Positions 47,770 to 56,851 of a stretch of 64,000 nt of DNA are shown one piece after another. Each line of letters begins with the position of its first letter. Position 1 is the stretch's first letter. The notes beneath the pieces were generated by a model that was given only the letters and a program-made list of their open reading frames with translations, made no database searches and was not told where the DNA came from. A program made the position numbers and the translations under genes. The stretch comes from Kutzneria viridogrisea (GTDB lineage: Bacteria; Actinomycetota; Actinomycetes; Mycobacteriales; Pseudonocardiaceae): positions 62,001-126,000 of the forward strand of contig JACJID010000006.1 in NCBI GenBank assembly GCA_014138725.1. The letters are read 5' to 3'.

Positions 47770-48540
47770 GTGCGCACAACCAGCAACCCCGCGTTCCGCA
47801 ACCTGCCCGGAGGCGGTCAGGGCGGCTACGCGGGCTTCGGCCAGCAGCAGACCGCGCCCGGGTACCCGGCCCCGCCGACCGCCGCCGACCGACCGATGAC
47901 CATCGACGACGTGGTCACCAAGACCGCCGTGACGCTGATCACCGCCGTGGTGACCGGTGGGCTCGCGGTGGTGCTGAACTTCCCGATGTGGACCGCCTTC
48001 GCGGCGATGCTCGTCGGCTTCGTGCTCTCGCTGGTGATCATCTTCAAGCAGGTGGTCAACCCCGCGCTGGTGCTGGCCTACTCCGCCGCCGAGGGCGTGT
48101 TCCTGGGCGCGATCACCCAGCTGTTCAACCGGTGGGTGCCCGGCGTGGCACTCCAGGCGATCATCGGCACGGCGATCGTGTTCGCCACCATGCTGGTGGT
48201 CTACCGGGTCGGCGCGGTGAAGGTGACGCCCCGCCTGACCAAGTGGATCATCGGCGCGACCGCCGGTGCCGCCGGTCTGATGCTGCTCAACCTGATCGTC
48301 TCGATGTTCACCGGTGGTGCCGGTCCGCTGCGCACCGGCGCCCTGGGCATCGTCATCAGCCTGGTGTTCATCGGCATCGCGGCCTTCAACTTCCTGCTCG
48401 ACTTCGACCAGGCCGACCGGGCGCTGCGCTCGGGCGCCCCGGCCCGCTTCGCCTGGTACATCGCCTTCGGCCTGATGACCACCCTGGTCTGGCTGTACCT
48501 GGAGATGCTGCGCCTGCTCGCCTCCCTCCAGCGCAACTAG
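47770..48540 (+). CDS. Bax inhibitor-1/YccA family membrane protein
   Basis: A 256-residue integral membrane protein of the TMBIM/BI-1 family with about seven transmembrane helices after a Gly/Gln-rich cytoplasmic N-terminus (to about 35). Conserved parts include SAAEGVFLGAITQLFNRW and ending AFGLMTTLVWLYLEMLRLLASL. The conserved paired Asp of the pH-sensing calcium leak family may be in FLLDFDQAD. Starts at GTG 47770 after AGGAGG. A strong hairpin terminator follows 14 bp after the stop. Confidence 0.9.
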   Translation: MRTTSNPAFRNLPGGGQGGYAGFGQQQTAPGYPAPPTAADRPMTIDDVVTKTAVTLITAVVTGGLAVVLNFPMWTAFAAMLVGFVLSLVIIFKQVVNPALVLAYSAAEGVFLGAITQLFNRWVPGVALQAIIGTAIVFATMLVVYRVGAVKVTPRLTKWIIGATAGAAGLMLLNLIVSMFTGGAGPLRTGALGIVISLVFIGIAAFNFLLDFDQADRALRSGAPARFAWYIAFGLMTTLVWLYLEMLRLLASLQRN

Positions 48541-48586: not shown

Positions 48587-49046
48587 CGCGTCTTCGCCAG
48601 CCGACAACCGCGTCTTCGCGCCGGTCTCTGGACCGCGGGCCCACGATGATCACATCTGTCCAGTGATCATCGTGGGACAAGGGAAGAGACCGGACCCAAG
48701 CGAAGACGCCGCGCTCCGGAGGAGCGCAGAGAGCGCAGCGGGCACAGCCGTCAGTACCGACACCCACGCCCGCTCGGGAGAGCCCGCATCAGTCCAGCGG
48801 GCGACCCGAGTAACCCCGCAAGCGCCGACACACCGTCCCGCAAGCGCCGACACACCGTCCCGGAACGCCGAACACACGCGCCGCGAAGCGCCGACACGCG
48901 CGTCCGCAACGTCCGACACGCGGGGCATGAACCGCCGACACGCGCACCCAGCCCGGGACTCACGCCCCCCAGACCGGGACTCGCGCTCCCCATGGCGGGA
49001 CTCGCGGGGAATGCGGCGAGTCCCGCCCACTGGCGGGCGAGTCCCG
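48587..49046 (+). repeat. Composite structured element, copy A (nested hairpins plus 22-bp and 21-bp tandem arrays)
   Basis: A non-coding element between convergent genes. Nested stems: CGTCTTCGC (48611-48619) with 48700-48708; CCGGTCTCT (48621-48629) with 48685-48693; CCCACGATGATCAC (48640-48653) with 48663-48676 around loop ATCTGTCCA. Then a hairpin GCGCTCC-GGA-GGAGCGC (48711-48727) and a two-part hairpin at 48773-48810 with loop ATCAGTCCA. Then six CCGACAC-type units at about 22-bp spacing (48825-48943), then three GGGACTC units exactly 21 bp apart (48955, 48976, 48997) and reverse copies near the thiolase stop. Copy B is at 56401-56851. Confidence 0.9.
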
Positions 49047-49048
49047 CG

Positions 49049-50269
49049 CTAGCTCAGGCGCTCCAGCACCATCGCCATGCCCTGGCCGCCGCCCACGCAC
49101 ATCGTCTCCAGGCCGAACTGCTTGTCGTGGAACTGCAACGAGTTGATCAGCGTGGTGGCGATGCGCGCGCCGGTCATGCCGAACGGGTGGCCCACGGCGA
49201 TGGCGCCGCCGTTGACGTTCAGCTTCTCCAGCGGGATGCCCAGGTCCTTGTAGGAGGGGATGACCTGCGCGGCGAAGGCCTCGTTGATCTCGACCAGGTC
49301 GATGTCGCCGATGGACAGACCGGCCTTGGCCAGCGCCCGCTTGGAGGCCTCGACCGGGCCCAGCCCCATGATCTCCGGGGACAGGCCGGACACGCCGGTG
49401 GACACGATGCGGGCCAGCGGGGTCAGGCCCAGCTCCTTGGCCTTGGTGTCGCTCATCACGACCAGGGCCGCGGCGCCGTCGTTGAGCGGGCAGCAGTTGC
49501 CCGCGGTGACCCGGCCGTCGGGGCGGAACACCGGCTTGAGGGTGGCGGTCTTCTCCAGGGTGACCCCGGCGCGCGGGCCGTCGTCGGTGGCGACCACGGT
49601 GCCGTCGGGCAGGGTCACCGGGGTGATCTCGCGGGCCCAGAACCCGTCGGCGATGGCCTTCTCGGCCAGGTTCTGCGAGCGGACGCCGAACTCGTCCATC
49701 TCCGCGCGGCTGACGTCCTTGAGCAGGGCCAGGTTCTCCGCGGTCTGGCCCATGGCGATGTAGACGTCGGGGACCTGGTTGTCCTCGCGGGGGTCGTGCC
49801 ACTCGTCGGCCCCGTGCTCGGCGACCGCCGCGGTGCGGGCGGCGGCGTCGGCGAACAGCGGGTTCTGCGTGTCGGGCAGGCCGTCGGAGCTGCCCTTGGC
49901 GAACCGGGACACGGTCTCCACACCGGCGGAGATGAACACCTCACCCTCACCGGCCTTGATGGCGTGGAAGGCCATCCGGGTGGACTGCAGGCTGGACGCG
50001 CAGTACCGGGTGACGGTGCAGCCGGGCAGGTGGTCCATGCCGGACAGCACCGAGACGACCCGGCCGATGTTGTAGCCCTGCTCCCCGCCGGGCAGGCCGC
50101 AGCCCATGATCAGGTCGTCGATGAGGGTCGGGTCCAGCGAGGGCACCTTGTCCAGGGCCGCGCGCACGATCTGCACTGCCAGGTCGTCGGGCCGGATGGA
50201 CACCAGCGATCCCTTGCCCGCCCGGCCGATCGGGGATCGGGCTGCGGAGACGATGACGGCTTCGGGCAT
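49049..50269 (-). CDS. Acetyl-CoA C-acyltransferase (thiolase)
   Basis: A 406-residue thiolase of fatty-acid degradation or acetoacetyl-CoA chemistry. The acyl-accepting Cys90 lies in VTRYCASSLQS, the His in GGAIAVGHPFGMTGAR and the second Cys in ETMCVGGGQGMAM. N-terminal VIVSAARSPIGRAGKGSL is standard. Broad-chain FadA-type is more likely than a biosynthetic one, but partner hydratase genes are not adjacent. It is a single gene; starts at ATG 50269 and ends at the edge of element A. Confidence 0.93.
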   Translation of the reverse strand: MPEAVIVSAARSPIGRAGKGSLVSIRPDDLAVQIVRAALDKVPSLDPTLIDDLIMGCGLPGGEQGYNIGRVVSVLSGMDHLPGCTVTRYCASSLQSTRMAFHAIKAGEGEVFISAGVETVSRFAKGSSDGLPDTQNPLFADAAARTAAVAEHGADEWHDPREDNQVPDVYIAMGQTAENLALLKDVSRAEMDEFGVRSQNLAEKAIADGFWAREITPVTLPDGTVVATDDGPRAGVTLEKTATLKPVFRPDGRVTAGNCCPLNDGAAALVVMSDTKAKELGLTPLARIVSTGVSGLSPEIMGLGPVEASKRALAKAGLSIGDIDLVEINEAFAAQVIPSYKDLGIPLEKLNVNGGAIAVGHPFGMTGARIATTLINSLQFHDKQFGLETMCVGGGQGMAMVLERLS

Positions 50270-50346
50270 CGCGAAACTCCTTCGGTTCGCCTACTGACTG
50301 GTAACTCCCAGCAGCGTAGAACCTCAGCAGTCCCGTCAGGGTGTGG

Positions 50347-51258
50347 TCAAGCTCTCCCGAGCCCGCGGTTCACCCGTGCGATCAGCCGGGCGGTCGGCCG
50401 CCGCGACTCGGCCAGCTGGGAGCGGGTGGGCAGGCTGGGCAGCGGGCCGCCGGTCCACACCCCGGCCACCGAGCACAGCGCGGGCAGCAGCACCGAGGCG
50501 GCCTGCTCGTACCCGGCGGCGCTGGGGTGGAACTGGTCGGAGCTGAACAGCTCGGCGGGCCGGGTGAGGAAGTCCGGGGCGAGCAGGTCGGCCAGCGGCA
50601 CGGCCAGGGCGCCCGCCTTGGCCACGGCCCGGCACTGGGCGCGGGACAGCAGCAGGCTCCAGGTCCGCGCGTAGGAGCGCAGCGGCTGCGCCAGCGGGCG
50701 GACCGTGCCCAGGTCGGGGCAGGTGCCCACGACCACGCCGGTACCGGCCTGGCGCAGGCGGCCCAGCTCGCGGACCAGTTTGGCCACCGACTGCGGGATG
50801 GGTAGCTGCACGGTCACGTCGTTGGCGCCGATGATGATCAGCGCCACGTCCGGGGGCCGGCCCGCCAGCGCCCGGTCCACCTGCGCGGCCAGGTCCCGGG
50901 TGGTCGCGCCGACCACGGCGTGGGTGTCCAGCCACACCGGGCGCCCGGACTCCTCGGCCAGCTCCCTGGCGAGCAGCACACCGGGCAGCTGCTCCGGCCC
51001 GTCCACGCCAAGGCCCGCGGCCATCGAGTCGCCGAACACCGCGAAGCGCAGCGGGGCCCGGTCCACCTCCAGCACCGGCAGCGGGCCGCGCCCGTCCGGC
51101 AGGTACATGCCGTCGCCAAGGAACGGCGGGTCCACCGGTATGCCGATGACCTGTTCGGCCTTTTTCGCCTGGACCAGCATCAACTGGTACAGCGCACCGG
51201 ACAGCCCGCCGAGGGCGCCCAGCGCCACCGCCGCCCTGCGAAACCCGTGCACAGCCAT
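50347..51258 (-). CDS. Membrane-anchored SGNH/GDSL-type hydrolase
   Basis: A 303-residue hydrolase with an N-terminal hydrophobic anchor or signal (AAVALGALGGLSGALYQLM) and the SGNH blocks: block I FAVFGDSMAAGLG with Ser, block III IIIGANDVTVQLP and the late block V DQFHPSAAGYEQAA with Asp and His. It probably acts as an esterase outside the membrane on a lipid or polysaccharide acyl group. ATG 51258 follows GGGGGAGGG. It lies divergently from the cystathionine beta-synthase gene and 78 bp upstream of the thiolase start. Confidence 0.88.
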   Translation of the reverse strand: MAVHGFRRAAVALGALGGLSGALYQLMLVQAKKAEQVIGIPVDPPFLGDGMYLPDGRGPLPVLEVDRAPLRFAVFGDSMAAGLGVDGPEQLPGVLLARELAEESGRPVWLDTHAVVGATTRDLAAQVDRALAGRPPDVALIIIGANDVTVQLPIPQSVAKLVRELGRLRQAGTGVVVGTCPDLGTVRPLAQPLRSYARTWSLLLSRAQCRAVAKAGALAVPLADLLAPDFLTRPAELFSSDQFHPSAAGYEQAASVLLPALCSVAGVWTGGPLPSLPTRSQLAESRRPTARLIARVNRGLGRA

Positions 51259-51393
51259 AGTCACCCTCCCCCGGTGCCGCACCAGTTCCATCGTCGGCTA
51301 GGCCGTTGGGGTTAACACGGCGAACCGGCTGGCTGTTCCCGGATCGGGTTAGGCTGCGGTCGTCCAACAGACGAATGACATAAGGGGAATCCG

Positions 51394-52764
51394 GTGGAGT
51401 ACGTCGAACACGTCGTCGACCTGGTCGGCAACACCCCGCTGGTGCGGCTGAACTCGTTGACCCGGGACCTCAAGCCGCTCGTGCTGGCGAAGGTGGAGTA
51501 CCTCAACCCCGGCGGCAGCGTGAAGGACCGCATCGCGCTGCGCATGGTGGAGGCGGCCGAGCGCTCCGGCGAGCTCAAGCCGGGCGGCACCATCGTCGAG
51601 CCCACCTCGGGCAACACCGGGGTCGGCCTCGCGCTGGTCGCCCAGCGCAAGGGCTACAAGTGCGTTTTCGTCTGCCCGGACAAGGTCAGCGAGGACAAGC
51701 GCAACGTGCTCAAGGCCTACGGCGCCGAGGTGGTGGTCTGCCCGACCGCGGTGGCCCCCGAACACCCCGACTCGTACTACAACGTCTCCGACCGGCTGGT
51801 CAGCGAGATCCCCGGCGCCTGGAAGCCCAACCAGTACGCCAACCCGGAGAACCCGGCCAGCCACTACCACTCGACCGGCCCCGAGCTGTGGCGGCAGACC
51901 GAGGGGCGGATCACCCACTTCGTGGCGGGTGTCGGCACCGGCGGCACCATCTCCGGCACCGGCCGGTACCTCAAGGAGATCTCCGAGGGCCGGGTCAAGG
52001 TCATCGGCGCCGACCCGGAGGGCTCGGTCTACTCCGGCGGCACCGGGCGCCCGTACCTGGTGGAGGGCGTTGGCGAGGACTTCTGGCCGACCACCTACGA
52101 CCGCGGCGTCTGCGACGAGATCATCCCGATCTCCGACGCCGACTCCTTCGAGGTCACCCGCAAACTGGCCCGCGAGGAGGGCCTGCTGGTCGGCGGCTCC
52201 TGCGGCATGGCCGCCGCGGCTGCCCTCAAGCTGGCCGAGCGCTGCGGCCCCGATGACGTGATCGTGGTGCTGCTGCCCGACGGCGGCCGCGGCTACCTGT
52301 CCAAGGTCTTCAACGACAGCTGGATGTCCTCCTACGGCTTCCTCTCGCCCGACCACTCCGGGGCCAGCGTGGGTGACGTGCTGCGCCGCAAGGACGGCAC
52401 CATGCCCGAACTGGTGCACGTGCACCCGAACGAGACGGTGGCCGAGGCGGTGGCCATCCTGCGCGAGTTCGAGGTCTCGCAGATGCCGGTGGTCAACGCC
52501 GAGCCCCCGGTCATGGCGGCCGAGGTGGCCGGTGCGGTCAACGAGCGTGACCTGCTGGACGCCCTGTTCACCGGCAAGGCCCAGCTGGCCGACCGGGTGG
52601 AGAACCACATGTCCCCGCCGCTGCCGACCATCGGCGCTGGTGAGCCGGTGGGTTCGGCCATGCAAGCGCTGTCCAACGCCGACGGCGCGATGGTGCTGGT
52701 GGACGGCAAGCCCGCGGGCGTGGTGACCAGGCACGACATCCTGGGCTTCCTCGCGGGCAGGTGA
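51394..52764 (+). CDS. Cystathionine beta-synthase
   Basis: A 456-residue PLP enzyme condensing serine (or acetylserine) with homocysteine to give cystathionine. The PLP lysine is Lys44 in NPGGSVKDRIALRM; PTSGNTGVG is the phosphate-binding loop; the GVGTGGTISGTGRYLKE block follows. Two C-terminal CBS domains (about residues 338-456) with MPVVNAEPPVMA and AMVLVDGKPAGVVTRHDIL suggest allosteric control. Starts at GTG 51394 after AAGGGG. Together with the gamma-synthase gene at 55200 it gives transsulphuration. Confidence 0.92.
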   Translation: MEYVEHVVDLVGNTPLVRLNSLTRDLKPLVLAKVEYLNPGGSVKDRIALRMVEAAERSGELKPGGTIVEPTSGNTGVGLALVAQRKGYKCVFVCPDKVSEDKRNVLKAYGAEVVVCPTAVAPEHPDSYYNVSDRLVSEIPGAWKPNQYANPENPASHYHSTGPELWRQTEGRITHFVAGVGTGGTISGTGRYLKEISEGRVKVIGADPEGSVYSGGTGRPYLVEGVGEDFWPTTYDRGVCDEIIPISDADSFEVTRKLAREEGLLVGGSCGMAAAAALKLAERCGPDDVIVVLLPDGGRGYLSKVFNDSWMSSYGFLSPDHSGASVGDVLRRKDGTMPELVHVHPNETVAEAVAILREFEVSQMPVVNAEPPVMAAEVAGAVNERDLLDALFTGKAQLADRVENHMSPPLPTIGAGEPVGSAMQALSNADGAMVLVDGKPAGVVTRHDILGFLAGR

Positions 52765-52815
52765 TCGCGGGGGGCGGGGGCGGCGGTCGGGCGTATCCGC
52801 TAGCGTTACGCCCGA

Positions 52816-52827
52816 CTTGACGTCAAG
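52816..52827. promoter_or_regulatory. Palindrome CTTGACGTCAAG upstream of the Pro/Gln-rich protein
   Basis: A perfect 12-bp palindrome in the 163-bp intergenic region after the cystathionine beta-synthase gene. It could be an operator for the next gene; the regulator is unknown. Confidence 0.35.
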
Positions 52828-52927
52828 GGCCCAAGGGGGTTGGAAACCCAGTGAGCGAGCTTGCGAGCGAACCAATGGGCACAGGGCCGGCGCGAAGCGC
52901 TGCGCCGAGCGCCAGCGAGGTGCGGCG

Positions 52928-54136
52928 ATGAGCGACTCACAGCCGCCTCAGAACGGTGAGTCCGCAGGGGTGAACCCGGACGCCACGCAGGTGGTGAACT
53001 CCGGGGCCCAGCCCCCGGCCGCCGAGTCCCCGGACGCGAACAAGACGCAGGTGGTGCAGCCGGGTGCGATCACCCCGCCGCCGATGCCCGCGACGACCCC
53101 GCCCCCGGCCGACTCCACCCAGATGGTGCCGCCCGGCACCATGCCGCCGCCCGGGCCCACCTACAGCCCGCCCGGCTACTCGACCCCGGCCAGCAGCCCA
53201 CAGCCGGTGCAGCCCGCCTTCGGGCAGCCGCCCGCGGACCCCTCGGCACAGCAGCCCCAGGCGTTCGGCCAGCAGCCCCCCTCGGGTGGCTTCCCCGGTC
53301 AGCCCGGGGCCGTGCCGGGGGCCCAGCCGTGGGGTGCCCCGCAGCAGCCCCAGGCGTTCGGCCAGCAGCCCGGGGCCAGCCCGTTCGGCGGCCAGCAGCC
53401 CGGCAGCCCGTACGGCCAGCCGCAGCAGCCCTCCTGGGCCACCCAGCAGCCCGGCGCCATCGGCCAGGCCCCGTACTCGGTGGGCGGGGGCGGCAGCAAC
53501 ACGCTGGCCGTGGCGATGTGGGTCACGATCGGGTACTGCGCCCTGAGCGCGATCCTTGGCATCTTCGGTCTGATCGGCACGCTCTCGCTGCTGGGCGCCG
53601 CCTCCCGCTACGGGGTCGGCGGCCTGGGCGTGGTGGCCGTCGTGATCGTGGCGGTGAGCCTGATCGTCTCGATCGGTGCCGGTGTGTGCGCGTGGTTCGG
53701 CGGCCAGGGCAAGAGCTGGGGCCGCATCGCCGTCACGGCGCTGCTCGGCCTCGGCATCCTGAGTTCGCTGTACTCCCTGGTCAACGGCTCCGGGTTCAGC
53801 GTACTGGGCATCCTGATCTCCGGCGGCATCATCGCCCTGTGGTGGATCCCGTCCACCACGCAGGCGATGCTCGCCAAGGAGGGCGGCGCCCCCGCCGGTG
53901 GCGGTTTCGGCCAGCCCGGCTACGGCCAGCCCGCCAACCCGTACGGCCAGCAGCAGCCCTTCGGCGCCCAGCCGCAGACCTACGGCCAGCCGCAGGCCAA
54001 CCCGTACGGTCAGCCGCAGGCCAACCCGTATGGCCAGCAGCCGAGCACCGGTGGCTTCCCGCAGCAGCAGCCGCCGCCCGCCAACCCCTACGGCCAGCCC
54101 CCGCAGGGCGGCCAGCAGGGCCCGTACGGCTACTGA
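52928..54136 (+). CDS. Pro/Gln-rich membrane protein with DUF4190-like domain
   Basis: A 402-residue protein. The N-terminal ~190 residues are low-complexity Pro/Gln/Gly. Three hydrophobic helices (about residues 196-275) resemble a DUF4190 membrane domain (ALSAILGIFGLIGTL, VVAVVIVAVSLIVSIGAGVC, ALLGLGILSSLYSLV). The C-terminal tail has NPYGQPQ repeats. Family members are of unknown function and frequently sit near RDD proteins, as here. I chose ATG 52928 because upstream residues are basic and without family support. Confidence 0.8.
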   Translation: MSDSQPPQNGESAGVNPDATQVVNSGAQPPAAESPDANKTQVVQPGAITPPPMPATTPPPADSTQMVPPGTMPPPGPTYSPPGYSTPASSPQPVQPAFGQPPADPSAQQPQAFGQQPPSGGFPGQPGAVPGAQPWGAPQQPQAFGQQPGASPFGGQQPGSPYGQPQQPSWATQQPGAIGQAPYSVGGGGSNTLAVAMWVTIGYCALSAILGIFGLIGTLSLLGAASRYGVGGLGVVAVVIVAVSLIVSIGAGVCAWFGGQGKSWGRIAVTALLGLGILSSLYSLVNGSGFSVLGILISGGIIALWWIPSTTQAMLAKEGGAPAGGGFGQPGYGQPANPYGQQQPFGAQPQTYGQPQANPYGQPQANPYGQQPSTGGFPQQQPPPANPYGQPPQGGQQGPYGY

Positions 54137-54149
54137 TCCGCAGCGTTGA

Positions 54150-54181
54150 GGCCGCCGCCCTCCTCCGTGGGGGCGGCGGCC
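54150..54181 (+). terminator. Hairpin terminator after the Pro/Gln-rich gene
   Basis: Perfect 11-bp arms GGCCGCCGCCC / GGGCGGCGGCC with a 10-base loop, then TTATCGTTG. Confidence 0.8.
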
Positions 54182-54194
54182 TTATCGTTGTCCG

Positions 54195-54686
54195 GTGAGC
54201 TTCGCGCAGCCCTCCTGGGGCACCCAGCTCTGGTACGGGCCGCCCACCCCACGCCCGGTCGCCAGCTGGGGCCGACGCCTGGGCGGCACCCTGGTCGACG
54301 CCCTGTGCTGCACCATCATCGGCGGGCTGGCCTGGCTGTTCGCCGTTGCCCTGCCCAGCGGGGTCGGCGCGGTCTGCGCCCTGGTGACCCTGGGCTGGCT
54401 CGTGGCCTTCGCGGTGTGGAACTTCGTGCACCGGCAGGGCGTCACCGGGCAGACCGTGGGCAAGTCGGTGGTCGGCGTGCAACTGGTCGGCCAGGGCACG
54501 GGCGCCCCGATCGGGCCGTTCGCCTGCGCCGTGCGGCAGGCACTGCACCTGGTGGACCTGCTGCCGCTGGGCGCGGGCTTCCTCGCCGCCGCCTGGGACC
54601 CGCGCGGTCGCACCTGGGCGGATCGCCTGGTCAACACGCTGGTGGTCCCCGCACCCCCGGACCTCGCTCGTATCTTGGGATCATGA
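54195..54686 (+). CDS. RDD family membrane protein
   Basis: A 163-residue RDD domain protein with about three to four membrane helices. The conserved Arg-Asp pair appears as GRRLGGTLVDALCC near residues 26-39, and WDPRGRTWADRLVNTLVV is the conserved C-terminal segment (about 135-152). Family function is unclear, possibly transport. GTG 54195. It overlaps the following membrane-protein gene by 4 bp. Confidence 0.87.
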   Translation: MSFAQPSWGTQLWYGPPTPRPVASWGRRLGGTLVDALCCTIIGGLAWLFAVALPSGVGAVCALVTLGWLVAFAVWNFVHRQGVTGQTVGKSVVGVQLVGQGTGAPIGPFACAVRQALHLVDLLPLGAGFLAAAWDPRGRTWADRLVNTLVVPAPPDLARILGS

Positions 54687-55150
54687 GCCCGCGTCGGCCC
54701 TCTGCCGTCACCACCGTCATCACCGGGCTGCTCGCCCTGGCGGCGGGCCTCTACCAGCTGTACCTGTTCTGGCCGTACCTGGAGTACCCCGGTTACCTGG
54801 ACTACCAGCTGGACCGGCCCAGGGCGTTCACCATGCAGGTCGCCCTGCTGGTGGCGGGCGTCGCCCTGGTGGCCGGGCCCGCACTGCTGCTGATGCGCCG
54901 GCGCGCGGGCCGCGCCCTGCTCGTGTCCGGCGGGGTCCTGCTCGTGGTGACCAGGTTGCTCGCGGGCTTCTTCGACGGCGGCCCGTTCATCTGGCAGCAG
55001 ATCGACTACTACGGCGCCTATCCCGCGCTGGTGGGCTGGGCGGCCATGCTGGTGGCCTCTGCCGCCGCGATCCTCGGCGTGGTACCCGCCACCAGCGACT
55101 ACCTGCGCCACGACCGGGCTGAGCAGGGCGAGTTGTCCAGCCAGTGGTAG
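54683..55150 (+). CDS. Four-helix membrane protein of unknown function
   Basis: A 155-residue protein with about four predicted membrane helices (TVITGLLALAAGLYQLYLF, VALLVAGVALVAGPALLLM, ALLVSGGVLLVVTRLLAG, LVGWAAMLVASAAAILGVV). ATG 54683 overlaps the RDD stop (ATGA), so the two form one unit. I do not recognise a family. The longer upstream reading of this frame is out-of-frame shadow of the RDD gene. Confidence 0.75.
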   Translation: MSPRRPSAVTTVITGLLALAAGLYQLYLFWPYLEYPGYLDYQLDRPRAFTMQVALLVAGVALVAGPALLLMRRRAGRALLVSGGVLLVVTRLLAGFFDGGPFIWQQIDYYGAYPALVGWAAMLVASAAAILGVVPATSDYLRHDRAEQGELSSQW

Positions 55151-55199
55151 CCGTCACCGACCTTTCGGCCCAGCGCCGTTCGCGCCGTAAGCTCTTGCC

Positions 55200-56354
55200 A
55201 TGACGGACCACACCGACCGATTCGGCTTCGAGACCCGGGCGATCCACGCCGGCCAGGAGCCGGACCCGCGCACCGGCTCGGTCATCGTGCCCATCTACCA
55301 GACCTCCACCTTCGCCCAGGACGGCGTCGGCGGACTGCGGGCAGGTGGCTACGAGTACTCGCGCACCGCCAACCCCACGCGGACCGCGCTGGAGGAGTGC
55401 CTGGCCTCGCTGGAGGGCGGCCGCCACGCGCTGGCCTTCTCCTCGGGCATGGCCGCCTCGGACATCACCCTGCGCGCGCTGGTGCGGCCCGGGGACCACC
55501 TGGTGATCCCGGACGACGCCTACGGCGGCACCTTCCGCCTGGTGGACAAGGTCTTCAGCCAGTGGGGCGTGGAGCACACCCCGGTGCACCTGTCCGACGT
55601 GGACGCCGTGCGCGCCGCGATCCGGCCCAACACCAAGGCGATCTGGGTGGAGACGCCCACCAACCCGCTGCTGGGCATCGCCGACATCTCCGCGCTGGCC
55701 GACGTGGCCCGCCAGGCACAGGCCCGGCTGGTCGTGGACAACACCTTCGCCACCCCGTACCTGCAGTCCCCGCTGGGCCTGGGCGCCGACGTGGTGCTGC
55801 ACTCCACCACCAAGTACCTGGGCGGCCACTCCGACGTGGTCGGCGGCGCGGCGATCACCTCCGACGACGAACTCGCCGAGAAGTTCGCCTTCCTGCGCAA
55901 CGCCGCGGGCTCGGTGCCCGGCCCGTTCGACTCTTGGCTGACCCTGCGCGGGCTGAAGACCCTCGGCGTGCGCATGGACCGGCACAGCGACAACGCCGAG
56001 CGCGTGGTCCAGGCGCTGGTCAAGCACCCGAAGGTCACCAAGGTGTACTACCCGGGTCTGCCCGAGCACCCCGGCCACGAGGTCGCCGCCAAGCAGATGC
56101 GCCGCTTCGGCGGCATGGTCTCGTTCACCGTGGCCGGTGGCGAGCAGGCCGCGCTGGACCTGTGCTCGCGCACGAAGCTGTTCACCCTCGCCGAGTCGCT
56201 GGGCGGCATCGAGTCGCTGATCGAGCACCCCGGCAAGATGACCCACGCCAGCACCGCGGGCTCCGCGCTCCAGGTGCCCGACGACCTGGTGCGCCTGTCG
56301 GTGGGCATCGAGGACGTGGAGGACCTGATCGAGGACCTGCTCGGCGCGTTCTGA
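55200..56354 (+). CDS. metB: Cystathionine gamma-synthase (or gamma-lyase)
   Basis: A 384-residue Cys/Met-metabolism PLP enzyme. The PLP lysine is Lys205 in VVLHSTTKYLGGHSDVVGG; ETPTNPLLGI and YEYSRTANPTR are conserved. MetB makes cystathionine from acyl-homoserine and cysteine; gamma-lyases are very similar, so the direction is uncertain. In this neighbourhood with cystathionine beta-synthase (51394), reverse transsulphuration to cysteine is possible. ATG 55200; a 13-bp-arm terminator follows. Confidence 0.88.
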   Translation: MTDHTDRFGFETRAIHAGQEPDPRTGSVIVPIYQTSTFAQDGVGGLRAGGYEYSRTANPTRTALEECLASLEGGRHALAFSSGMAASDITLRALVRPGDHLVIPDDAYGGTFRLVDKVFSQWGVEHTPVHLSDVDAVRAAIRPNTKAIWVETPTNPLLGIADISALADVARQAQARLVVDNTFATPYLQSPLGLGADVVLHSTTKYLGGHSDVVGGAAITSDDELAEKFAFLRNAAGSVPGPFDSWLTLRGLKTLGVRMDRHSDNAERVVQALVKHPKVTKVYYPGLPEHPGHEVAAKQMRRFGGMVSFTVAGGEQAALDLCSRTKLFTLAESLGGIESLIEHPGKMTHASTAGSALQVPDDLVRLSVGIEDVEDLIEDLLGAF

Positions 56355-56359
56355 TCCAA

Positions 56360-56399
56360 CCCCCTGAGCGGGCCGCCCCGGCGAGTCCCGCTCAGGGGG
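56360..56399 (+). terminator. Terminator of the cystathionine gamma-synthase gene
   Basis: Perfect 13-bp arms CCCCCTGAGCGGG / CCCGCTCAGGGGG with a 14-base loop, immediately before element B. Confidence 0.8.
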
Positions 56400-56400
56400 T

Positions 56401-56851
56401 GTGAGTCCCGGGCTCCTGTGTGTGAGTCCCACTCTCTTGCGCGTGAGTCCCGGTCTGGCGCACGTGAGTCCCGGTCTGGGGGGCGTGAGTCCCGCGCTGG
56501 GGGGCGCGGGTCGGCGCTTCTTGGCCTGCGTGTCAGACGTTGCGGACGTGCGTGTCGGCGCTTCGCGGTGTGCGTGTTTGGCGTTGCGGGGTGGTGTGTC
56601 GGCGCTTGGTGTCGGCGTTTGCGGGGTTGCTCGGGTTCGCCCGCTGGAAAGACGCGGGCTCTCCCCGAGCGGGCTTGGGCGTTCGCTGGGGACGGCTGTG
56701 CCCGCTTCGCTCTCTGCGATCCTCCGGATCGCGGCGTCTTCGCTTGGGTCCGGTCTCTTCCCTTGTCCCAAGATGATCACTGGAAAGATGTGATCATCTT
56801 GGGCCTGCGGTCCAGAGACCGGCGCGAAGACGCGGGACCGGCGCGAAGACG
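56401..56851 (-). repeat. Composite structured element, copy B (inverted relative to A)
   Basis: Inverted copy of the element at 48587-49046. On the plus strand five GTGAGTCCC units lie at exactly 21-bp spacing (56401, 56422, 56443, 56464, 56485), followed by about five TCGGCG-type units at 22 bp (56511 to 56599) and one at 56612. The hairpins follow: GCTCGGG/CCCGAGC (56629-56670), GCGATCC-TCC-GGATCGC (56716-56732), and the nested stems 56735-56743 with 56824-56832, 56750-56758 with 56814-56822, 56767-56780 with 56790-56803. Also between convergent genes. Confidence 0.9.

Follow-up and report, generated by a model that had tools for sequence, protein, structure and literature searches.

MITEs are short, non-autonomous and dispersed, and they show presence and absence differences. 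Integron attC sites are recognised as folded single strands, with sequence that is free where pairing alone matters, and covariation is the standard proof of functional RNA. Mitochondrial double-hairpin elements and Repetitive Hairpin-forming Elements are short, non-coding and present in many copies, as described in the available text of PMC2800124 and the fungal work cited there. The element described here, found in a 64,000-nucleotide window of Kutzneria viridogrisea, shares with the mitochondrial elements its two hairpins, many copies and complementary stem substitutions; related species likewise differ in copy number, and the available text reports no flanking duplications for the fungal elements (PMC2800124), much as no general target duplication is found in Kutzneria. 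With adjacent hairpins, complementary changes and many copies it resembles this class, an analogy that carries no claim of common ancestry. Unlike the mitochondrial elements, it lies in high-G+C bacterial chromosomes and has a longer stem with conserved internal loops and a conserved 3′ tail. REP and BIME sequences with RAYT are also intergenic palindromic repeats that occur in many copies and keep stem complementarity (PMC2817692, in the text available), whereas the Kutzneria element is a larger two-hairpin unit with no GT(A/G)G head and no RAYT in its own genome. It is MITE-like in being short, non-autonomous, dispersed and different in presence and absence, but its ends are not paired by terminal inverted repeats and there is no general target duplication. 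A likeness to attC sites would lie in recognition as a folded single strand, which we propose for the element, and in the free sequence of its paired parts.

Copies A and B are members of a DNA element of ~131 bp that folds into two hairpins (Table 1). The core begins with a stem of 10+9+2+14 bp, interrupted by fixed internal loops, and continues with a 7-bp second hairpin and the tail. Both copies lie where an earlier note on this DNA had placed them, and the stem sequences it quoted are exact: the inner stem reads CCCACGATG../..CATCGTGGG in copy A and CCCAAGATG../..CATCTTGGG in copy B, the second hairpin is GCGCTCC/GGAGCGC in copy A and GCGATCC/GGATCGC in copy B, and the CGTCTTCGC/GCGAAGACG and CCGGTCTCT/AGAGACCGG stems are identical in the two. 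The predicted fold of copy A is the comparative fold, with z of -7.6 as RNA and -8.6 as DNA, and copy B reaches -8.4 as DNA; the structure of both is far beyond chance. A coding function is rejected, as the same note had held, since the open reading frames that run through the copies are mechanical.

Table 1. Features of copies A and B and of their surroundings (positions in the window)
Feature	Position	Strand	Remark
Partial 5′ iteration CGCGTCTTCGC upstream of copy A	48587-48597	+	
Copy A, core element	48608-48738	+	model match 48608-48727, then 11-nt tail 48728-48738
Copy A, P1 5′ arm GCGTCTTCGC	48610-48619	+	partner 48700-48709
Copy A, P2 5′ arm CCGGTCTCT	48621-48629	+	partner 48685-48693
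Copy A, internal loop 5′ side: GGA, CC, GCG, GG	48630-48639	+	CC pairs with GG 48681-48682
Copy A, P3 5′ arm CCCACGATGATCAC	48640-48653	+	partner 48663-48676; hypervariable block is the proximal half
Copy A, terminal loop ATCTGTCCA	48654-48662	+	consensus RTCTKTYCA
Copy A, internal loop 3′ side ACAAGGGA	48677-48684	+	
Copy A, P1 3′ arm GCGAAGACGC	48700-48709	+	
Copy A, second hairpin GCGCTCC-GGA-GGAGCGC	48711-48727	+	
Copy A, 3′ tail AGAGAGCGCAG	48728-48738	+	other Kutzneria: CANRRRCAC(W)G
Extra hairpin 3′ of copy A, same loop type (ATCAGTCCA)	48770-48811, approximate	+	
Other dispersed-repeat arrays (GCCGACAC-type, GGGACTC-type), outside the element	48820-49046, approximate	+	
Other dispersed-repeat arrays downstream of copy B	56381-56640, approximate	-	
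Copy B, core element	56705-56835	-	model match 56716-56835, then tail

The repeat unit is shorter than the 450 bp first proposed. The copies match only over query positions 22 to ~157, and the rest is a composite of other dispersed repeats; hits to the query past ~230 are to different short arrays, dispersed over many unrelated loci. Partial 5′ iterations comparable to the one upstream of copy A precede copies L003, L006, L009 and L010, and the extra downstream hairpin, found in long copies of the K. viridogrisea genome, lies outside the minimal element. Some copies also stand head-to-tail at 136-bp spacing.

Dispersed copies are found well beyond the window. At E <= 0.001, the covariance model gives 23 matches in the K. 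viridogrisea genome, 103, 54, 41, 16 and 58 in five other Kutzneria genomes (longer variants included), and 0 in the small Kutzneria genome G004. A broader model matches 76 of 390 genomes of the family Pseudonocardiaceae, and a third matches a few genomes in other families. One distant genome has tandem copies in which the tail CAACACAG abuts the 5′ end of the next copy (L331), and the loop pair TGGACTGAG / CGAGGGAAGA recurs in another family. Within the window the sole Rfam match at threshold is a tRNA, and 7 and 10 further loci gave sub-threshold matches only, a few of which overlap an element (miRNA-type hairpins, gyrA); a structured RNA family from Rfam is rejected, as none reaches its gathering threshold. 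Neither the window copy used as query nor L318 matched a plasmid, and L318, the sole phage query, had no match among phages. In the literature text available we found no description of a Kutzneria double-hairpin repeat. The accessible portion of the Kutzneria albida genome paper does not mention palindromes or hairpins and uses "repeat" for islands and citations, and that of the Saccharothrix espanaensis paper does not mention repeats, repetitive sequence, palindromes or hairpins.

An alignment of many copies, the check set by the earlier note, shows very strong covariation in stems that stay paired. Across 44 pairs in 94 distinct copies, 97.8% of cells are paired compared to 77.6% in shuffles, and double-change cells number 717 compared to 187. 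For four of five measures 0 of 500 shuffles was as high (192 of 500 for the fifth, the number of pair types), and sliding the partners left 31.7-38.0% of cells paired. Once 12 identical rows and the pair at columns 34/76, where G.A is frequent, are set aside, the 4036 cells of the remaining 43 pairs comprise 3947 Watson-Crick, 29 G-T, 12 A-C and 48 other combinations. G-U pairs amount to 0.7% in the element and to 4.7% (25/528) in 25 tRNA structures of its own genome, a control that drew on 30 of 47 tRNA loci and on 25 of 31 structures, and in which ARAGORN disfavours mismatches; RNase P RNA has 4/102. Double changes in the 43 pairs are transversions in 444 of 700 cells and transitions in 256. 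The scarcity of G-U may be due in part to high G+C. This scarcity and the preponderance of transversions among double changes together suggest that perfect stems are maintained in the DNA itself, and a DNA-level process fits both better than stepwise RNA compensation.

Beside the variable helix middles, the internal and terminal loops are nearly invariant: each base of the internal loop GGA is present in 93 of 94 distinct copies, and the terminal loop is inverted in 0 of 94. Changes on both sides of a stem had been taken to mean that pairing is under selection. This does not follow by itself, because template switching can rewrite both arms. Multi-base compensatory changes have been traced to it in published work, whose available text calls the evidence for maintenance of short stems circumstantial (PMC8794818). 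Selection on the element is still indicated by the nearly invariant loops and the terminal loop that is never inverted. The hypervariable stem block showed no link to the flanks (p 0.17 and 0.52).

Site polymorphism is found between species at 13 Kutzneria sites outside those of copies A and B, picked as filled in one genome and compared with 60 orthologous regions (site S5 had no usable ortholog). The type-1 element is in place in 4 of the 60 (L172, L173, L191, L195), any model hit occurs in 14, and none in 46, a count that includes L219 (S14 in G006), which looks decayed by eye. Part of these absences may be losses because the empty sites are compared between species, and left element boundaries are blurred by divergence. 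At site S11 the element is absent from the five other genomes, and the filled copy has a -10-like box on one side and the Shine-Dalgarno region on the other. Stop codons and positions immediately upstream of Shine-Dalgarno sequences are among the insertion points. Partial loss is seen at S3 in G003 and S7 in G001, where hairpin 2 and the tail are kept and most of the main hairpin is gone. Some elements occupy orthologous places in several species, and movement is therefore slow. Between orthologous filled pairs, 15 comparisons (three of which share site S3) hold 34 double Watson-Crick changes, 16 one-sided changes (13 mismatch, 3 G-U) and 4 others; the orthology of pairs L051/L235, L068/L250, L233/L236 and L234/L241 was judged by eye on the basis of their flanks, and the count leaves out L078/L086 (opposite orientation, one site) and L004/L077. 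Several adjacent pairs change together between orthologs, and the inner hairpins of orthologs L058 and L195 are wholly different.

We consider it probable (roughly 0.6) that the copies are a short, non-autonomous mobile DNA element, recognised by its structure and moved by a putative mobiliser. The earlier note offered a non-coding RNA, a cruciform DNA landmark or a non-autonomous mobile element, and it is the last that gains most, from the covariation and the between-species site polymorphism. The element has a fixed direction, from the long interrupted hairpin through the short second hairpin to a 3′ tail that closes with CAC(W)G. A strand exposed as single-stranded DNA, at a replication fork or in a cruciform, for example, would fold, and the internal loop (TGGAC..RAGGGAAG), the P1/P2 junction, the terminal loop and the tail may be what a putative host enzyme recognises before it inserts a copy between genes elsewhere. 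Helix middles would need only to pair, so their letters could drift. The arms may change together when one templates the other through template switching or hairpin repair, the presumed source of the double changes, and copies exchanging inner hairpins could be a second cause of joint arm change. A wider proposal, which we hold tentatively and regard as doubtful, is an undescribed superfamily of structure-recognised mobile elements across several actinobacterial families, moved by a kind of enzyme new to hairpin repeats and evolving by rewriting whole stems with the arms matching. With covariation this strong and G-U pairs this scarce, the element is a natural test case for how DNA-level compensatory change arises and persists. 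It would add a mobile element family to Pseudonocardiaceae genomes, and knowing what mobilises it would explain the spread of a two-hairpin element that has neither matching ends nor general target duplications.

It is unlikely that the copies are instead a structured non-coding or cis-acting RNA family, with transcripts whose fold is preserved by compensatory changes and whose loops are binding sites for a protein or ligand. The strong z of the RNA fold, the nearly invariant loops beside variable stems and the direction-specific structure would suit such a family, as would copies in apparent 5′ UTRs (S2, S11, and yajC in S12), but G-U pairs are far fewer than in the genome's own tRNAs, most double changes are unable to pass through G-U, most of the tested orthologous borders are without any hit, and Rfam offers no family at threshold. 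The neighbouring genes bear on both sides. Copy A is flanked by convergent reading frames at 47770-48540 (+) and 49049-50269 (-); copy B comes after a frame at 55200-56354 (+), and on its far side is a minus-strand protein-like frame ending in TAG at 56910-56908, missing from the 100-aa ORF list. The convergent setting claimed for both copies is thus direct for copy A, indirect for copy B, and not general. By a codon-composition heuristic, the 93 of 106 model matches with usable flanks have 28 convergent, 46 tandem and 19 divergent neighbours, with unreliable counts in the own genome because its flanks are full of other repeats; 60 confident calls outside it give 22, 29 and 9. The excess of convergent over divergent neighbours is modest and could suit a role at 3′ ends, whereas the occurrence of all four orientations argues against the RNA family. 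A strong preference for convergent genes is rejected by these heuristic counts.

Equally, we find it improbable that the copies are functionless inverted repeats that correct themselves and lack a mobiliser of their own, their arms kept perfect and copies occasionally spread by template switching and ectopic recombination. The published precedent for template switching (PMC8794818, in the text available), the joint change of adjacent pairs between orthologs, the wholesale difference between the inner hairpins of L058 and L195, and the head-to-tail arrays with partial 5′ iterations are all consistent with this process. It fits poorly with asymmetric loops that stay nearly invariant while helix middles vary, with a terminal loop that is never inverted, with recurrence of the loop pair in another family, and with the dispersed matches in Kutzneria, which number from tens to a hundred in each genome.

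An ordinary REP moved by RAYT, or a classical cut-and-paste MITE dependent on a DDE transposase, is disfavoured as highly improbable: the element is intergenic, palindromic and present in many copies per genome, and REP palindromes likewise keep complementary changes (PMC2817692, available text), but its own genome has no RAYT/IS200 transposase, its 5′ foot has no GT(A/G)G consensus, there is no general target duplication, and its two ends are unlike each other. PF01797 (IS200/RAYT type) has no match in the own genome and matches one of seven Kutzneria genomes, G003 (23.8 bits compared to a cut-off of 23, E 3.1e-4). A retroelement or reverse transcriptase mobiliser is rejected, since PF00078, though found in G000, G001 and G002, the own genome among them, is missing from three carrying genomes, G003, G005 and G006, with 41, 16 and 58 element matches. 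Six stretches between neighbouring copies held no transposase among ORFs listed by script and judged by eye. The GT(A/G)G head was sought in 76 upstream flanks, which have no consensus of this kind at the palindrome 5′ foot, and terminal inverted repeats are absent, the 5′ end being P1 and the 3′ end hairpin 2 plus tail, which are not inverted copies. Words shared between the two flanks were not above those of permuted pairs (p 0.08 to 0.58; four window sizes, two measures, n = 76). Single cases, L036 and L080 among them, look like target duplications.

The two inverted structures reported in the earlier note at copies A and B, with the stem bases quoted for each, are correct on reading the sequence, and the predicted fold of the copies, as RNA or DNA, is the structure described there, with z-scores against shuffles of -7.6 (A as RNA), -8.6 (A as DNA) and -8.4 (B as DNA). 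The 450-bp unit proposed at the same time is too long. When the 460-bp copy A was searched against its own genome (Kutzneria viridogrisea; 10.25 Mb, 11 contigs), the repeated core spanned only query positions 22 to ∼157, and beyond position ∼230 the query matched different short arrays that are dispersed over many unrelated sites. Some core copies stand head-to-tail in this genome with 136-bp spacing (e.g., C2:1335063, 1335199, 1335335), and in other Kutzneria genomes conservation ends at the 3′ tail. Copy B appears to lie between convergent genes, and among the neighbors of the copies convergent pairs are modestly commoner than divergent ones.

Positions of the two copies and parts of the element, in 5′ to 3′ order
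Feature	Position (strand)	Size	Sequence or remark
Copy A, core	48608-48738 (+)	∼131 bp	
Copy B, core	56705-56835 (-)	∼131 bp	
Short-repeat arrays after the copies	48820-49046 and 56381-56640		GCCGACAC-type and GGGACTC-type; also at many other genome places
P1 (main hairpin stem)		10 bp	
P2 (main hairpin stem)		9 bp	
First internal loop			GGA / GA
Short helix after first internal loop		2 bp	CC/GG; GCC/GGC in a subtype
Second internal loop			between the 2-bp helix and P3
P3 (main hairpin stem)		14-16 bp	
Terminal loop			RTCTKTYCA
Linker			asymmetric; before hairpin 2
Hairpin 2		7 bp	loop mostly G-N-A
3′ tail			CANRRRCAC(W)G in 76 copies of other Kutzneria genomes

Stretches of GGGACTCGCG, similar to the arrays beside the copies, occur in intergenic regions of other Kutzneria. 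Partial iterations of the 5′ end alone precede the core at four Kutzneria loci (L003, L006, L009, L010) and are also found in a distant genome, G732 (L331:1429-1532); these could be traces of interrupted copying.

The compensatory changes from which the earlier note argued for selection on pairing hold in alignments of many copies, with strong covariation in sets of 32 sequences, 106 model matches and 36 cross-genus sequences. The 32-sequence set was aligned with MAFFT and its structure named afterwards from that alignment, and is less biased than the larger alignment (106 matches, 94 distinct), since the latter was fitted to a covariance model; it is 97.1% paired, with 228 double changes against 64.6 after shuffling. 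Among the 94 distinct copies, standard pairs fill 97.8% of 4130 cells (one base pair in one sequence) and both sides have changed in 717 cells against 187 after shuffling, while displacing the partner column by one to three positions leaves only 31.7-38.0% paired. The number of pair types, one of five measures, is unexceptional in this larger set (192 of 500 shuffles as high); in the 32-sequence set, 5 of 500 shuffles were as high. The cross-genus set, also model-fitted, is 96.5% paired, with 422 double changes against 116. Fifteen orthologous filled pairs, three sharing one gene border (S3) and four called by eye, differ by 34 changes on both sides that keep Watson-Crick pairing, 16 on one side only and 4 of other kinds. 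Between two copies at one site (L058 and L195), 10 pairs of P2 and P3 are different, and therefore the inner hairpins may be exchanged between copies.

The exceptions to Watson-Crick pairing are few: 29 G-T, 12 A-C and 48 other combinations in 4036 cells (43 pairs). G-U pairs make up 4 of 102 in the RNase P RNA of the same genome and 25 of 528 in its tRNAs (25 of 31 structures used; 30 of 47 loci fetched), a control in which ARAGORN seldom reports mismatches; the Fisher p of 1.5e-10 for element against tRNA overstates certainty because cells are not independent. Transversions, for which no G-U intermediate is possible, account for 444 of 700 double-change cells. Scarce G-U and many transversions are the pattern expected if one arm serves as the template for its partner, and a published account describes template switching as a route to such copying (PMC8794818). 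A structured RNA, a reading that the covariation and predicted RNA fold would suit, is improbable beside these counts. A neutral repeat that merely corrects itself would suit arm copying and is just as unlikely: template switching does not imply a functionless element, because the internal-loop GGA, like five terminal-loop positions, is identical in 93 or 94 of 94 copies, variation is found in the central parts of P1, P2 and P3, and none of these copies has its terminal loop inverted.

Comparison of orthologous sites bears on mobility. Fourteen gene borders filled in one Kutzneria genome were chosen and the neighboring gene sought in six; 13 yielded 60 orthologous regions in other genomes, scored with two covariance models (R1 and the broader R2). 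The same kind of element was in place in 4 of these, 14 had a model match of any kind (among them longer type-2 elements, remnants and elements at a greater distance), and the remaining 46 had no match. At S11 the element of G003 is flanked by a -10-like box and the Shine-Dalgarno region; of five other genomes without it, four share a compact sequence and the fifth, K. viridogrisea, differs. TCAGT, which comes after ..AC of the element in the filled genome, is also kept in five other genomes at S6 and S10, and in three empty genomes at S13, where a remnant in G006 reads TCAAT. Hairpin 2 and the tail are kept at S3 (G003) and S7 (G001), with most of the main hairpin alone missing, and L051 in G006 is filled while its G002 counterpart, L124, is empty.

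Seven loci (L175, L177, L178, L196, L197, L198, L214) carry the longer type-2 element, with a ∼150 bp model match and a different interior; such elements sit at or near some type-1 sites, in opposite orientation at S4. Apparently the same gene border holds different interiors in K. viridogrisea (L016/L022) and Saccharothrix (L122), and another holds opposite orientations in two Kutzneria genomes (L078, L086). Upstream of yajC, K. buriramensis has the element and four other Kutzneria (L209-L212) an unrelated small hairpin.

We favor, at a probability of roughly 0.6, a DNA element recognized by its structure and moved by a putative host-supplied enzyme. A profile search found no RAYT/IS200 enzyme in K. 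viridogrisea, of the Kutzneria genomes with copies three have a reverse transcriptase and three lack one, duplications at the flanks do not exceed the chance level, and stretches between neighboring copies enclose ordinary genes. We do not file the element under REP/RAYT or classical MITEs, since the defining features tested for each were not found. In its workings it most resembles mitochondrial double-hairpin elements; one account relates that, because these lack flanking duplications, others proposed an RNA intermediate for them (PMC2800124). No published description of the repeat was found among open-licence PMC papers.

R1 matches number 23 in K. viridogrisea and 103, 54, 41, 16 and 58 in five congeners, with none in a 4.7-Mb congener, and R1 is positive in 13 of 150 family genomes. 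A frame pattern matched 29 stretches, which come from Kutzneria, Saccharothrix, Lentzea, Amycolatopsis and Actinokineospora, in a set that may lack records close to K. viridogrisea. R2 is positive in 76 of 390 family genomes and 7 of 46 genera, counts that are lower bounds because no more than nine candidates were scored in each genome. In a class sample R2 is positive in 2 of 394 genomes, K. viridogrisea among them. A third model, R3, is positive in 6 of the 394, again including K. viridogrisea; the other five belong to two other families, and one rests on a single match. E-values of these models are rough, as calibration was short. One to four matches occur in each of the seven genomes searched from the genus of G684, and the loop pair TGGACTGAG / CGAGGGAAGA recurs in its family. 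In G732, three copies of 115 bp stand head to tail, with the tail CAACACAG abutting the next 5′ end. At L017:1092-1635, one K. viridogrisea copy directly adjoins the RNase P RNA gene at its 3′ end.
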